Shown here piece by piece: positions 25,634 through 40,470 of a stretch of DNA of 64,000 bases (positions within the stretch are counted from its first letter, which is position 1; each line of letters opens with the position of its first letter). Source of the DNA: a virus; the IMG/VR virus record IMGVR_UViG_3300020416_000001, positions 62,001 to 126,000 of that record, one strand, 5' to 3'. The notes beneath the pieces were generated by a model. It was not told the DNA's origin. It ran no database searches and saw nothing but the letters and a program-made list of their open reading frames with translations. Both the position numbers and the translations under genes were made by a program.

Positions 25634-26326
25634 ATGGAAGCGCAACCTCAAAAGGAAAAAATTAATCCAAAGGATCAAGCGATCAAGAAGACTAAGCAAC
25701 TTCTAGACCGCAGGCAACTTATGATTAATCTTAGAAAGTTGCAACTTCAAAGAAAGTCCGTTCAACAAAAAGGAAACACTGATATGCACCTACAGACACA
25801 ATCGGTTGATCCCTGTGCTATGATAAGTTTCGGAGAGTTTATCTCCGAGGGCGGTCTCGCTCGGGCGATGCAGAAATCCAATACCAAAGTAACTGGACAT
25901 ATCAGTGCTGACCGTGGTTCTTCTGAAAAGGATAACCGTAGTAAAAGAAAAGGACTTGAAAAAGATCTTAAGAAGCACGGTATTGGTCACAAGAAAGGTG
26001 TTGGAGAGTATAAATATGATTCAGGTGAGACAGGTCGTGAGGTTTCGTACCACACTTCCAAACCCGACAAGATGTCCAAGCGTCGCTTTGGTAAAGTGAT
26101 GCGCCGTCTTGGTCGTAAGCACGGACAAGAATCTGTGATTACTAAAGACAAGGACAAACCTGCAAAGTTACACACTACCGAAAAAGGAAGCAAAGCAAAG
26201 TCTGAGACTCTAGGTAAGTCGAAGGTGGGCAAGCATCCAAAAGGATATGGTGAAACCTCATCAACTAAGGTGAGATCAGGTAAACTACCAGACAAATCTA
26301 AAGACAGGAAATTTCACTATGGCTGA
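25634..26326 (+). CDS. basic protein with internal capsid-targeting-like motif (candidate internal head protein)
   Basis: 230 residues from ATG 25634, very rich in Lys and Arg. Residues 63-72 read MISFGEFISE, close to the T4 capsid-targeting sequence MKTYQEFIAE of internal proteins and ending in an I-x-E prohead-protease type site. In-frame ATG 25820 would put this motif at the N-terminus, but no ribosome-binding site is visible there. The C-terminal region (HISADRGSSEKDNRSKRKGL ... REVSYHT ... GQESVIT) forms a separate domain with a loose resemblance to DUF3293. Overlaps the next gene by 8 nt. Function inferred only. Confidence 0.6.
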   Translation: MEAQPQKEKINPKDQAIKKTKQLLDRRQLMINLRKLQLQRKSVQQKGNTDMHLQTQSVDPCAMISFGEFISEGGLARAMQKSNTKVTGHISADRGSSEKDNRSKRKGLEKDLKKHGIGHKKGVGEYKYDSGETGREVSYHTSKPDKMSKRRFGKVMRRLGRKHGQESVITKDKDKPAKLHTTEKGSKAKSETLGKSKVGKHPKGYGETSSTKVRSGKLPDKSKDRKFHYG

Positions 26327-26462
26327 ACAGAACAACAATGGACAGTGGGTATGTCAGTATTGTGACCTCACTTCCCCTCAAGGACATTGGCGTCCTAAAA
26401 CTTGGATCGAAAAGCACGAATTAAATTGTGCATCTAACCCCAAACTCAATAAGGAAAAATGA
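26319..26462 (+). CDS. 47-residue zinc-finger-like microprotein
   Basis: Starts at ATG 26319 inside the end of the preceding gene and ends in an ATGA overlap with the next gene. The protein contains Cys12-x2-Cys15 and His33-x3-Cys37, a spacing compatible with a C2HC zinc finger. Sandwiched between two basic candidate head proteins and coupled to both, which supports that it is real. Confidence 0.65.
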   Translation: MAEQNNNGQWVCQYCDLTSPQGHWRPKTWIEKHELNCASNPKLNKEK

Positions 26463-27376
26463 AATCATTTAGCGAGTTCCTCACAGAAAGACAAAAGGAC
26501 AGCGACAACCAGAGATTAAGTCAAGAACGTGGTCGTTCTAACTATGGTAAAGCGTCTGTTCGTAATGTCAGAGCAACAGGTCAAGGTGGCAATGGTGCTG
26601 ACCCTGCTGAGAGACTCGTGGCAATGGATGCAAGACACAAGGCACACAAAGAAAAACGTGGTGTCAAAACTAAGGGTCTCAAAGAAGGATTAACTGGTGC
26701 AAGAGCACAACGTGCTCGTGAGATGCAAGATAGTGACATCAAAAAAGGTGGTGGTAAGAGAACTAATGCTGATAGAGATACAGCATTCAGACTTGGCACT
26801 GGCACAAGTGAGACCCGAATTTCACAAAAACAAAGAAAGGGTGCAAGTGATCAAGGCAAAGGTAACGCTGCCAAACGTCGTATGAGTGAAGGGGTAGGAC
26901 TTTCTATTGCGAGAGCGATTGACAAAACTAATCCACCTCTCGGAAGAGCATCTAAGAGAAAGGCAATCAGTCACGCACTAAAGATGCGTGAGATTATGAA
27001 GGATACTAAAAAGAACAAACAGAAAGACGATCCCTATTCAGCAGGTAAGATTGCTAAGGCAGCACTTGGTGGTAAGGATAGTAAGAAGAAAAAGAAACCA
27101 GAAAAATCTCCTGTTTCATTCCTACAGGACAAGCAAGTAAAAGAAAGTGCTTGGCAAAGAAAGGAAGGCAAGAATCCTAGTGGTGGACTGAACGAGAAAG
27201 GACGCAAGTCCTATGAAAGAGAGAATCCTGGTTCAGATCTCAAAGCACCACAACCCGAAGGTGGTCCTAGAAAAAGATCATTCTGTGCTCGTATGAGTGG
27301 AGTGAAAGGACCTATGAAAGATGAGAAGGGCAGACCTACACGTAAAGCACTCGCACTTAGGAAGTGGAAGTGCTAG
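26459..27376 (+). CDS. highly basic protein with N-terminal capsid-targeting motif and DUF6321-like C-terminus
   Basis: 305 residues. The N-terminus MKSFSEFLTE parallels the T4 capsid-targeting peptide MKTYQEFIAE, followed by a possible prohead protease cut after L-T-E, the same tripeptide as in gp23 here. The body is extremely Lys/Arg/Gly/Ser-rich. The C-terminal ~75 residues (QRKEGKNPSGGLNEKGRKSY ... SFCARMSGVKGPMKDEKG ... ALRKWKC) match the DUF6321-type domain found in cyanophages. A DNA-associated internal head protein is a reasonable inference. ATGA overlap with the upstream zinc-finger gene. Confidence 0.68.
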   Translation: MKSFSEFLTERQKDSDNQRLSQERGRSNYGKASVRNVRATGQGGNGADPAERLVAMDARHKAHKEKRGVKTKGLKEGLTGARAQRAREMQDSDIKKGGGKRTNADRDTAFRLGTGTSETRISQKQRKGASDQGKGNAAKRRMSEGVGLSIARAIDKTNPPLGRASKRKAISHALKMREIMKDTKKNKQKDDPYSAGKIAKAALGGKDSKKKKKPEKSPVSFLQDKQVKESAWQRKEGKNPSGGLNEKGRKSYERENPGSDLKAPQPEGGPRKRSFCARMSGVKGPMKDEKGRPTRKALALRKWKC

Positions 27377-27767: not shown

Positions 27768-28091
27768 ATGAAGTTCATTCTGGCATTCTTTGCAACTCTG
27801 TTCTTGGCATTGCCAGTTTTTGCTGTCGATATTAATATGGGAGATGATGGAAAATTAGTTTTCCAACCTTCAGAGGTTACTATCTCTGCAGGTGAGACTG
27901 TTCATTTTTTGAACACTATGTTGCCTCCACATAATATTATAGTAGAATCACGTCCAGACCTTTCTAGGGAAGCACTTATGTTTAACCCAGGAGAGACTAT
28001 GGACATTACATTCCATACCCCAGGTGATTACGAATTCTTTTGTGCACCACATAGGGAAGCAGGAATGACAGGAACAATTCACGTAAACTGA
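27768..28091 (+). CDS. petE: plastocyanin (auxiliary photosynthesis gene)
   Basis: 107 residues. A signal peptide (hydrophobic residues 3-18, cleavage probably after VFA19) targets the thylakoid lumen. The type 1 copper ligands are His55 (PPHN), Cys92, His95 and Met100, with the canonical Cys-x2-His-x4-Met spacing. The mature chain of about 88 residues is shorter than typical cyanobacterial plastocyanin (about 98). It carries electrons from cytochrome b6f to photosystem I; phage copies are thought to sustain host electron flow during infection. Overlaps the next gene by one base. Confidence 0.92.
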   Translation: MKFILAFFATLFLALPVFAVDINMGDDGKLVFQPSEVTISAGETVHFLNTMLPPHNIIVESRPDLSREALMFNPGETMDITFHTPGDYEFFCAPHREAGMTGTIHVN

Positions 28092-37194: not shown

Positions 37195-37389
37195 ATGCCA
37201 TCCATTCAAGCACAAGAGATTGTCAACAAAATTTTTTCTGGGAACAAAGATCTCAGTTCAGAGGTTGATGATGCAATGAAAGCGGTTACTGCCGATGCTC
37301 TAGAAGCAAAGAAAAAGGAAATCGCAGGCGGTTGGATGAAACCCGAAACTACAGAGGAACCAAATGAAACTGATCACGGAACAGATTGA
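37195..37389 (+). CDS. putative prohead core protein (gp67/gp68-like position)
   Basis: 64 residues, helical N-terminal half (QAQEIVNKIFSGNKDLSSEV) and acidic Pro/Thr/Glu tail. Lies between gp20 and gp21, where T4 has the small core genes 67 and 68. Overlaps the gp21 start by 26 nt. The assignment is positional; sequence similarity to T4 gp67 or gp68 is not evident to me. Confidence 0.55.
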   Translation: MPSIQAQEIVNKIFSGNKDLSSEVDDAMKAVTADALEAKKKEIAGGWMKPETTEEPNETDHGTD

Positions 37390-38014
37390 AGACGTTCAGA
37401 TCCTCACTGAGGAAAAGAACGGCAAGAAAAATCTATACATAGAAGGAACTTTCTTACAAGGCGAGATTAAAAATCGCAATGGAAGAATGTACCCTATCAA
37501 CACACTCCGTCGTGAAGTTGATAAATATAACGAATCGTTTGTAAAGAACGGTCGCGCACTTGGAGAGTTGGGTCACCCTGACGGTCCTACTGTGAACCTT
37601 GATCGTGTCTCACACTTGATTACATCGCTTGTTCAAGAAGGTAATAACTTCAGAGGCAAGGCGAGAATCCTAGATACCCCTATGGGTAACATCGCCAAGA
37701 ACCTTTTAGGTGAAGGTGTGAAACTAGGAGTTTCCTCACGTGGCATTGGTTCACTCCAAGAAACTCGTGATGGATCAAAAGTAGTTGCTGATGATTTTAT
37801 GTTGGCAACCGCAGCAGATATTGTTGCTGACCCTTCAGCACCAGATGCTTTTGTTAATGGCATTATGGAAGGCAAAGAATGGATCTGGAATAACGGAATC
37901 ATTCAAGAGTCTGAAATTGCAAGTATGAAACAAAAGATTGACAATGCTGCGAACCACAAGATTCTTGAAGAGCGGAAGATTTCCGCGTTTTCAAAATTCT
38001 TAAACTCCCTGTGA
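37364..38014 (+). CDS. gp21: gp21 prohead core protease
   Basis: 216 residues (T4 gp21: 212). Family blocks: NGRMYPINTLRREVDKY, GELGHPDGP with the probable catalytic His71, LGVSSRGIG with the serine nucleophile at Ser124/125, and DIVADPSAPDAF. It cleaves scaffold, capsid and internal proteins during head maturation. Its own N-terminus holds two L-x-T-E-like sites (KLITE, QILTE), as expected for a self-processing enzyme. Confidence 0.94.
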   Translation: MKLITEQIEDVQILTEEKNGKKNLYIEGTFLQGEIKNRNGRMYPINTLRREVDKYNESFVKNGRALGELGHPDGPTVNLDRVSHLITSLVQEGNNFRGKARILDTPMGNIAKNLLGEGVKLGVSSRGIGSLQETRDGSKVVADDFMLATAADIVADPSAPDAFVNGIMEGKEWIWNNGIIQESEIASMKQKIDNAANHKILEERKISAFSKFLNSL

Positions 38015-38063: not shown

Positions 38064-39056
38064 ATGTCACAAGAGAATGAAGTAATGGCATCCGAAGAAA
38101 AGCAGGAAGTCACCGAAGCAAAATTCGACGGTGCTGTTGCTGATGGTTCTTCTTTGGGTGGCGTTGAGGTACTCGGAGGTCCTACACCTCAGAACTCTAA
38201 ACCTGATGATGAGTCTAACAAACTGAAGACTCCATCACAAACCCAGGCAGCATCACCGAAGACAAAACCTTCTGCTGCTTCACCCCAGAAAGCGGAATCA
38301 GTAGAAGCAGAAAACGCTGAAGGAGATGAACTTATCGAAGTTGATCTTTCTGCAGACGTCGCTGCTCTTACAGAAGGCGAAGACCTTTCTGAGGAGTTCA
38401 AACAAAAGGCAGCAACAATCTTCGAAGCTGCTGTAGTCTCTCGTTTGAATGAGGAACTTGATCGTGTTCATAAAGAATACGCCGAGACTCTTTCAGAAGA
38501 GGTCGAAAGTATTAAGTCTTCCCTTGCCGAGCAAGTAGATGAGTATCTTACATATGCTGCTCAGCAATGGATGGACGCTAACCAACTCGCTGTTGAAACT
38601 GGTCTCAAAGCAGAGATCGCAGAGAGCGTAGTTAGCGGACTTAAAAAAGTTTTCGTCGAGAACCATATCGAGGTTCCCGAAGAAAAAGCAGACATCATCT
38701 CTGAGATGGTGACTGAACTTGATTCGATGGAAGCAAAACTCAACGAACAAATTGATAAGAACATTGCCCTCAACCACGAAGTTGCAGGTTATGTTAAGAA
38801 TGGAATCGTGAAGGAGATCGCAGAAGGTCTCGCATCTACCGAGAAGGAGAAACTTGAGTCTCTTTCAGAAGGTGTTGAGTTTGAAGATGAAGAGTCATTC
38901 CGCAGCAAAGTTGAGACTCTAAGAGAGTCGTATTTCAGCAGCAAGCCCCAGGCAGCAGCAGAAACGATTGCTGAGGATGTACAACCTGTTGTGGATACAG
39001 AAATGACGGATTCAATGTCTAAGTACGTTGATGCCCTCCGTCGTTGGACTAAGTGA
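38064..39056 (+). CDS. gp22: gp22 prohead scaffold protein
   Basis: 330 residues, strongly acidic and helical. Ala/Pro/Ser-rich N-terminal third, then long heptad-like helix (FEAAVVSRLNEELDRVHKEYAETLSEEVES) typical of T4-like gp22. C-terminus ends MTDSMSKYVDALRRWTK, like other cyanophage scaffolds. Several L-x-E sites (ALTEGE, LSEE, SLSEG) are candidates for gp21 cleavage. It forms the inner core on which gp23 assembles. Located between 21 and 23 as in T4. Confidence 0.9.
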   Translation: MSQENEVMASEEKQEVTEAKFDGAVADGSSLGGVEVLGGPTPQNSKPDDESNKLKTPSQTQAASPKTKPSAASPQKAESVEAENAEGDELIEVDLSADVAALTEGEDLSEEFKQKAATIFEAAVVSRLNEELDRVHKEYAETLSEEVESIKSSLAEQVDEYLTYAAQQWMDANQLAVETGLKAEIAESVVSGLKKVFVENHIEVPEEKADIISEMVTELDSMEAKLNEQIDKNIALNHEVAGYVKNGIVKEIAEGLASTEKEKLESLSEGVEFEDEESFRSKVETLRESYFSSKPQAAAETIAEDVQPVVDTEMTDSMSKYVDALRRWTK

Positions 39057-39105: not shown

Positions 39106-40470
39106 ATGTTCAAATCCGAACATCTGCAGGAGAAGTGGTCACCCGTTCTTAATTGTGAGGGTCTTGATTCCATCAAGGACAACTATAAGAAGGCGGTAAC
39201 CGCAATCTTGCTCGAAAACCAAGAATCATTTCTAAAAGAAGAGAGAGGAATCCTTACTGAGGCAGCACCTACAAACTCTACTGGATCTACAAGTTCAGTT
39301 GCAGGTTTCAGTGCAGACGCTACAGCAACTGGTCCTGTCGCAGGTTTCGACCCTGTTCTGATCTCCTTGATCAGACGTTCAATGCCTAAGCTTATTGCTT
39401 ATGACATTGCAGGCGTTCAACCTATGACTGGTCCTACTGGATTGATCTTCGCAATGAGATCTAGATTCGGTACAGACCGTGCTTCAGGTACAGAAGCATT
39501 CTACAACGAACCTGATTCTGACTTCACTGGTAGAGACGCTGCTCAAACTAGTGGATTCGGTTCTTCTACTGCACAGGCAGGTTCAAACCCAGGTCTTCTT
39601 AACGACTCTGGTACATACACAAACGGTACTGGAATGAGAACTGATGAGTCTGAGACTCTCGGTACTGGTTCTAACGCCTTCGCTGAAATGAACTTCAGCA
39701 TTGAGAAAGTTACTGTGACTGCGAAGTCCAGAGCACTCAAGGCAGAGTACAGTTTGGAACTAGCACAGGATCTTAAAGCAGTTCACGGACTTGACGCTGA
39801 ATCTGAGTTGGCAAACATCTTGTCTACTGAGGTTCTTGCTGAGATCAACCGTGAAGTTGTTAGAACTGTTTACAAGATCGCAAGACCTGGTGCTCAGTCA
39901 AACACAGCAACCGCAGGTATCTTCGACCTCGACGTTGACTCAAACGGCAGATGGTCTGTTGAGAAGTTCAAAGGTCTTCTCTTCAACATCGAAAGAGATA
40001 TGAACGCAATCGGGCACGAGACTCGTCGCGGGAAGGGTAACATCATCATCTGTTCTGCAGACGTTGCATCCGCCCTTTCAATGGCAGGCGTTCTTGACTA
40101 CACCCCTGCACTTTCTGGTAACAGCAACCTTCTTCCTGACGACAACTCCTCAACTCTTGCAGGTACGTTGAACGGTAGAATCAAGGTTTATGTTGACCCA
40201 TATTCTGCAAACGTAAGTGACAGACACTTCTACGTGGCAGGTTACAAAGGTAGTTCTGCATATGATGCAGGTCTGTTCTACTGTCCTTATGTTCCTCTCC
40301 AAATGGTTCGCGCCGTTGGTCAGGACACCTTCCAACCAAAAATCGGATTCAAGACAAGATACGGTCTTGTTTGCAATCCATTTGCTGAAGGTACAAATCA
40401 GGGTAGTGGTGCTCTTACTGCTAACGCTAACCGTTACTACAGACGTGTTCTTGTTGACAACCTTATGTAA
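39106..40470 (+). CDS. gp23: gp23 major capsid protein
   Basis: 454 residues. The N-terminal propeptide leads to RGILTE52|A53, a likely gp21 cleavage site analogous to the T4 gp23 site. Diagnostic capsid segments follow: PVLISLIRRSMPKLIAYDIA, GVQPMTGPTGLIFAMRS, and C-terminal FYCPYVPLQMVRAVGQDTFQ, KIGFKTRYG. T4 gp23 is 521 residues; cyanophage versions are shorter, in line with this one. It is followed by a strong terminator. Confidence 0.97.
   Translation: MFKSEHLQEKWSPVLNCEGLDSIKDNYKKAVTAILLENQESFLKEERGILTEAAPTNSTGSTSSVAGFSADATATGPVAGFDPVLISLIRRSMPKLIAYDIAGVQPMTGPTGLIFAMRSRFGTDRASGTEAFYNEPDSDFTGRDAAQTSGFGSSTAQAGSNPGLLNDSGTYTNGTGMRTDESETLGTGSNAFAEMNFSIEKVTVTAKSRALKAEYSLELAQDLKAVHGLDAESELANILSTEVLAEINREVVRTVYKIARPGAQSNTATAGIFDLDVDSNGRWSVEKFKGLLFNIERDMNAIGHETRRGKGNIIICSADVASALSMAGVLDYTPALSGNSNLLPDDNSSTLAGTLNGRIKVYVDPYSANVSDRHFYVAGYKGSSAYDAGLFYCPYVPLQMVRAVGQDTFQPKIGFKTRYGLVCNPFAEGTNQGSGALTANANRYYRRVLVDNLM

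Follow-up and report, generated by a model that had tools for sequence, protein, structure and literature searches.

A T4-type capsid-targeting sequence on a modular DUF6321 protein and on unrelated proteins of T4-type phages

The capsid-targeting sequence (CTS) is a signal already known from phage T4, in which residues 4 and 7 are involved in targeting and residues 8 and 10 in processing (PMC9026906). In a T4 control, the exact sequence MKTYQEFIAE was found to be encoded in ipII and ipIII only. Packaging into the head is also directed by an N-terminal propeptide or signal in the ejection proteins processed by the prohead protease of SPN3US/phiKZ-type phages and in DarB of P1, but the propeptides of the former are longer (with AxE sites in SPN3US) and the N-terminal signal of P1 is a different one. 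Polyvalent phage proteins are multi-module proteins that are thought to be packaged and injected, and a peptidase domain of their own has been proposed to cut them (PMC5512222). The domain DUF6321 (PF19846; T4-GC 119 in cyanomyoviruses) is carried mostly by long chains without an N-terminal tag or by short untagged podovirus proteins. The T4-GC 119 genes are annotated as 'similar to S-SM1 protein' and, in S-P4, as 'structural protein', which is only suggestive. A literature search found no mention of DUF6321, and it found 'capsid targeting sequence' and 'cyanophage' together in a T4 review only.

The window, that is, the whole stretch of 64,000 nucleotides analysed here, sits within a virus record of 171,756 bases. 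Its gene set is that of a T4-type cyanophage, with gp13 to gp23 in order, including gp21, gp22 and gp23, and its nearest DNA matches are cyanomyoviruses (60-80% identity). A plastocyanin-like ORF at 27768-28091 points to a cyanobacterial host. The features discussed below are the following.

25634..26326, plus strand: basic ORF next to the focal one, with a SAM-lyase-like domain (PF23780) and a likely start at 25634 (MEAQPQ...)
25820..25849, plus strand: second CTS-like motif, MISFGEFISE, directly 5' of the SAM-lyase-like domain
26459..27376, plus strand: focal ORF, 305 aa, basic, ending in DUF6321
26459..26488, plus strand: N-terminal CTS MKSFSEFLTE, with a predicted gp21 cut after Glu10
26489..26890, plus strand: region of residues 11-144, the first ~68 of which (RQKDSDNQRLSQERG..., RQKDSDNQR...) are a shuffled module
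26891..27145, plus strand: module 2, residues 145-229 (GVGLSIARAIDKTNPP...), preceded by MSE
27146..27373, plus strand: DUF6321 module, residues 230-305 (SAWQRKEG...KWKC), preceded by VKE/S (a slash marks a known or predicted cut)
37364..38014, plus strand: gp21 prohead protease (phrog_207 head maturation protease, 1.8e-85), the predicted processing enzyme
38064..39056, plus strand: gp22 scaffold/core protein (phrog_237 head scaffolding protein, 2.8e-98), on which the tag presumably docks
39106-40470, plus strand: gp23 major capsid protein, with the propeptide-end motif ILTE at 39250..39261

The original prediction described a T4-type targeting peptide, MKSFSEFLTE, on a DUF6321 protein, and the motif is present on the plus strand at 26459-26488, at the very start of the focal ORF, with AAGGA 5' of the ATG. 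The extreme basicity ascribed to the remainder is also borne out (K+R 80, D+E 35, pI 10.6 for the 305-aa ORF). DUF6321 occupies residues 237-303, and with 89.2 bits against a cut-off of 28.5 this C-terminal domain belongs to PF19846; a structure prediction gave three helices (pTM 0.39), and the domain had no match in the PDB by sequence or by fold. The N-terminal stretch of about ten residues fits the T4 consensus MK[ST][FY]x[EQ]F[IL]xE shared with IPII and IPIII, and it closes with a gp21-type propeptide end of the form (I/L)xE (LTE10/R11). As in T4, the mature protein is basic, and gp21, gp22 and gp23 are encoded in the same genome; unrelated bodies behind one tag are a further likeness. The focal protein differs from the T4 internal proteins in its unrelated body, its cyanophage origin, the Arg after the cut and the additional, likely protease sites by which the chain is split into modules. 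LTE had also been named as the apparent cut site of gp23. That protein does contain GILTE/AAPTN, but the focal LTE is followed by Arg and not Ala, and Arg at P1' (Arg11 in the focal protein) is seldom seen behind N-terminal tags.

A looser CTS motif has just two matches when the 64 kb are read in all six frames, at 26459 and 25820. The strict T4-derived pattern occurs at 32 N-termini among 1,044 non-redundant genes from 207 T4-type IMG/VR loci (marine), compared with a mean of 0.5 and a maximum of 5 in 200 shuffles. Positions that the pattern leaves free agree with MKTYQEFIAE of T4, namely K2 in 29/32, S/T3 in 30/32 and E/Q6 in 26/32. When all viral contigs were scanned with a DNA pattern encoding MKSFx[EQ]F[LIMF]xE, at least 120 stretches were found, versus 0 matches for a permuted-codon control. 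Chance is ruled out by the shuffles and the permuted-codon scan, and the reading of MKSFSEFLTE as a T4-type CTS is supported. Among the matches listed there are 80 motif loci, 56 with T4-type genes, 0 from podoviruses and 24 without a marker, and thus all 56 classifiable loci in this list are T4-type. The protein could instead be a late, non-virion DNA- or RNA-binding protein whose N-terminal likeness is incidental and whose relatives were detected by mass spectrometry (MS) through carry-over. Its high basicity, the late-region position of its gene and the untagged podovirus versions fit such a role, but both controls and the agreement at unconstrained positions count against it, and we regard it as highly improbable.

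The same tag is present on many unrelated proteins, which goes beyond what had been predicted. About 30 non-homologous protein clusters share it among the matches listed, including a zeta-toxin-like kinase, a lysozyme, a methyltransferase and cytidylyltransferases. Outside the window, the focal genome has two further tagged genes, at 135665 (a cytidylyltransferase) and at 139248 (a small ORF). In several cyanophages, DUF6321 genes are found at one locus between gp16 and gp17, and this shared position would suit a reading of the conserved N-terminus as inherited within one gene family and not as a functional tag. That explanation is barely credible given the non-homologous bodies behind the tag and the tagged genes elsewhere in the same genome. 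Moreover, close relatives in which ~130 residues behind the tag are absent (residues 11-141) retain MKSFxEF, a sign that the tag itself is under selection.

Several tagged proteins were observed in addition. A widespread family of ~105 aa (MKSFxQFLSE/SVNISGDFNGTL..., phrog_1742) is frequently located beside DUF6321 genes; examples are found at loci L282, L326, L145 and L352 and in S-SZBM1 (gp085, L088:24312-24629). Candidate packaged effectors with the tag include zeta-toxin-like/nucleotidase, phage-lysozyme and methyltransferase proteins, and one that resembles an ADP-ribosyltransferase by eye and has no family match (L405:7824-9002, L425:836-1465, L376:936-1586, L358:10529-11047).

A search of DUF6321 homologues for the N-terminal motif, proposed as a check of the original prediction, showed that most of them lack the tag. 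The strict tag is carried by 11/77 myovirus DUF6321 genes (14%) and is missing from the other 66/77, a lenient definition gives 16/77, and 0/7 podovirus clusters have it. The tag therefore does not define DUF6321. It is nevertheless enriched in these genes (11/77 vs 24/967 others, p 2e-5). The tagged proteins are nearly all shorter versions, with a strict tag on 11/30 of the shorter myovirus ones, whereas the long versions have no N-terminal tag and carry (I/L)xE-like sites at the module joints instead.

The focal protein is likely a modular chain with two protease sites in addition to the one at the tag, a feature that the original prediction did not contain. The module behind the focal tag recurs in other polyproteins with 88-94% identity, preceded by LTE, LDE, ITE, ISE or LNE in unrelated sequence contexts, and (I/L)xE/R is found before this same first module in other proteins as well. 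Judged by sequence, what stands ahead of the recurring module is a T4-type (I/L)xE site, and its occurrence ahead of one module in unrelated contexts is a further point against an incidental N-terminal likeness on a non-virion protein. Module 2 is preceded by MSE in the focal protein and by IEE, IDE, VDE or FDE in relatives, all of the form hydrophobic-x-E. Glu directly precedes the DUF6321 module in 127/130 myovirus versus 3/37 podovirus versions, a contrast that may reflect few evolutionary events since the podovirus lineages differ. A hydrophobic residue is found at P3 of this Glu in 73/110 cases (66%), compared with 633/2585 (24%) for other Glu residues of the same proteins (p 2e-19). DUF6321 polyproteins show no internal enrichment of the full motif (0.17 vs 0.30 per 1,000 aa), and the internal sites thus rest on the shorter hydrophobic-x-E pattern. 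Matches to the full motif within other long genes are mostly in SAM-lyase-type polyproteins, usually as one site right before that domain. From the patterns at the tag, at module 2 and at DUF6321, three cuts are therefore predicted as likely in the focal chain, after residues 10, 144 and 229. The chain is multi-module like the polyvalent proteins, but the likely cutter is gp21; apart from DUF6321, no peptidase domain or other named effector domain was found in the focal ORF.

The second motif of the window, MISFGEFISE, belongs to the neighbouring ORF. PF23780 passes narrowly in this ORF (30.9 bits vs a cut-off of 28). A search of the PDB by sequence gave no relevant match, and the top fold matches of its model (pLDDT 60) are the phage SAM lyases 6znb, 6zm9 and 7ock, which are weak (best E 3.8e-3). 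The ORF falls in the same PHROG (12788) as the virion SAM hydrolase gp6 of S-CREM2 (PF23780), in which the tag is N-terminal. The motif at 25820, in contrast, is probably an internal site, because relatives have in common a start further upstream, at the equivalent of 25634, and carry the motif inside a longer chain. Between the two basic genes is a 47-aa ORF (26319-26462) with CxxC and H/C residues, which is zinc-finger-like and conserved as S-SZBM1 gp083.

Virion proteins of related phages have been reported. S-SCSM1_29 is a virion protein by mass spectrometry (PMC9602691, GenBank record), and S-CREM2 gp137 was found in virions with 4 unique peptides (PMC10665884, Table 3). Both carry DUF6321 (PF19846 40.8 bits in gp137), are long and lack a tag at the N-terminus. 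The tagged DUF6321 protein S-SZBM1 gp084 is absent from the 30 proteins listed for the S-SZBM1 virion, as is its neighbour gp085, and S-SCSM1_30 has no virion-protein mark in the S-SCSM1 annotation. The published proteomics thus places DUF6321 proteins in virions, as had been anticipated, but through two long untagged homologues and not through the tagged S-SZBM1 gp084. The view of DUF6321 proteins as packaged head proteins is partly supported, by the T4-type CTS and by these two homologues, but does not extend to the family by way of the tag.

Other tagged proteins are found in virions. In S-CREM2 they are the SAM hydrolase gp6 (MKDFDSFLEE), gp13 (MKDLHSFLTE), the kinase gp14 (VKRFDAFLTE), gp136 (MQTFSMFFSE) and the cytidylyltransferase gp154 (MKNFSSFLTE). 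The NMNAT S-SCSM1_91 is a virion protein tagged MKSFLQFLKE, and the cytidylyltransferase S-SZBM1_140, with the tag MRFRQFIIE, has been reported in virions (PMC9146016, Table 1). Both the S-CREM2 and the S-SCSM1 study allow for carry-over as a source of non-structural virion matches (PMC10665884, PMC9602691), a concession that favours a non-virion role of DUF6321 proteins. Against that role, the strict tag is associated with MS detection in these two phages (6/97 virion vs 3/404 other proteins, p 0.002; tagged CDS were paired with the annotation tables by hand).

Further features were observed in these proteomes. The virion proteins S-CREM2 gp160 (L100:14343-15236) and S-SCSM1_97 (L096:43221-43406) copy the segment that follows the gp23 cut (GFTGAAAPEGPVAGYDP vs gp23 GFTGAAAPGGPNAGFDP; also at L170 and L351), and some tagged proteins pass directly from the tag into a gp23-like segment. 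Such a segment may be a second means of holding cargo to the shell. Tag-like sequences are C-terminal in two virion proteins (KRTFKEFLEYIE and KTFRDFLN), S-SCSM1_93 (L096:41726-41935) and S-CREM2 gp12 (L095:7704-10313). The latter is a Cas9-like nuclease found in virions, with LRFASFMAE at residues 18-26.

Probably, then, the focal protein belongs with the T4-type internal head proteins, is targeted by its CTS, is cut by gp21 into what would be several pieces and leaves the capsid with the DNA. Its capsid targeting is well supported by the features of the tag, and its cutting by gp21 moderately supported by the site patterns; by analogy, we infer that it may be injected into the host. Phe4 and Phe7 would dock the CTS on the gp22 core during prohead assembly. 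Leu8-Thr9-Glu10 would form the gp21 prohead-protease site, so that gp21 would remove the tag. The same enzyme would probably cut also at MSE144/G145 and VKE229/S230, freeing the basic modules and the DUF6321 domain, and the freed modules would remain with the packaged DNA in the head and exit with it at infection.

Alternatively, the protein might, like gp67/gp68, only assist assembly at the prohead core, where the tag brings it, and then be destroyed by gp21 before packaging and never injected. The presence of several gp21-type sites in one chain recalls those core proteins of T4 that are fragmented by cutting (PMC9026906), and virion presence has not been reported for the tagged S-SZBM1 gp084 and S-SCSM1_30. 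This role is nonetheless rather unlikely: the homologues S-SCSM1_29 and S-CREM2 gp137 persist in purified virions, modules are shuffled between genes, and the tagged virion enzymes (SAM hydrolase, kinase and cytidylyltransferases) are implausible as scaffold.

On the internal-head-protein reading, T4-type cyanophages would use the same tag, N-terminal or inside polyproteins, to load a changing set of proteins that would include SAM-lyase-like proteins, cytidylyltransferase/NMNAT, kinase and DUF6321. A literature search of incomplete coverage found no description of a wide cyanophage use of the CTS, of its match with unexplained virion enzymes or of the polyprotein form. We give about even chances to a broader reading, in which T4-type phages of marine and fresh waters have a general system for protein delivery. 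The CTS-like tag and gp21 cutting would load, mature and release a fast-changing set of effectors, some as shuffled protease-cut polyproteins, and these would affect the host as soon as infection begins. The set would comprise SAM-lyase-like, NMNAT/cytidylyltransferase, kinase, zeta-toxin-like, lysozyme-like and DUF6321 proteins. Proteomics reports enzymes in cyanophage virions and cannot separate cargo from contamination. With a tag of near-zero background this can be tested directly, and candidate cargo, unknown proteins included, can be listed for any T4-type genome. Since it is found on dozens of unrelated proteins, several of them detected in purified particles, it is usable to predict packed and probably injected proteins. 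The polyprotein form, if true, would be a new way of packing several effectors behind one signal.
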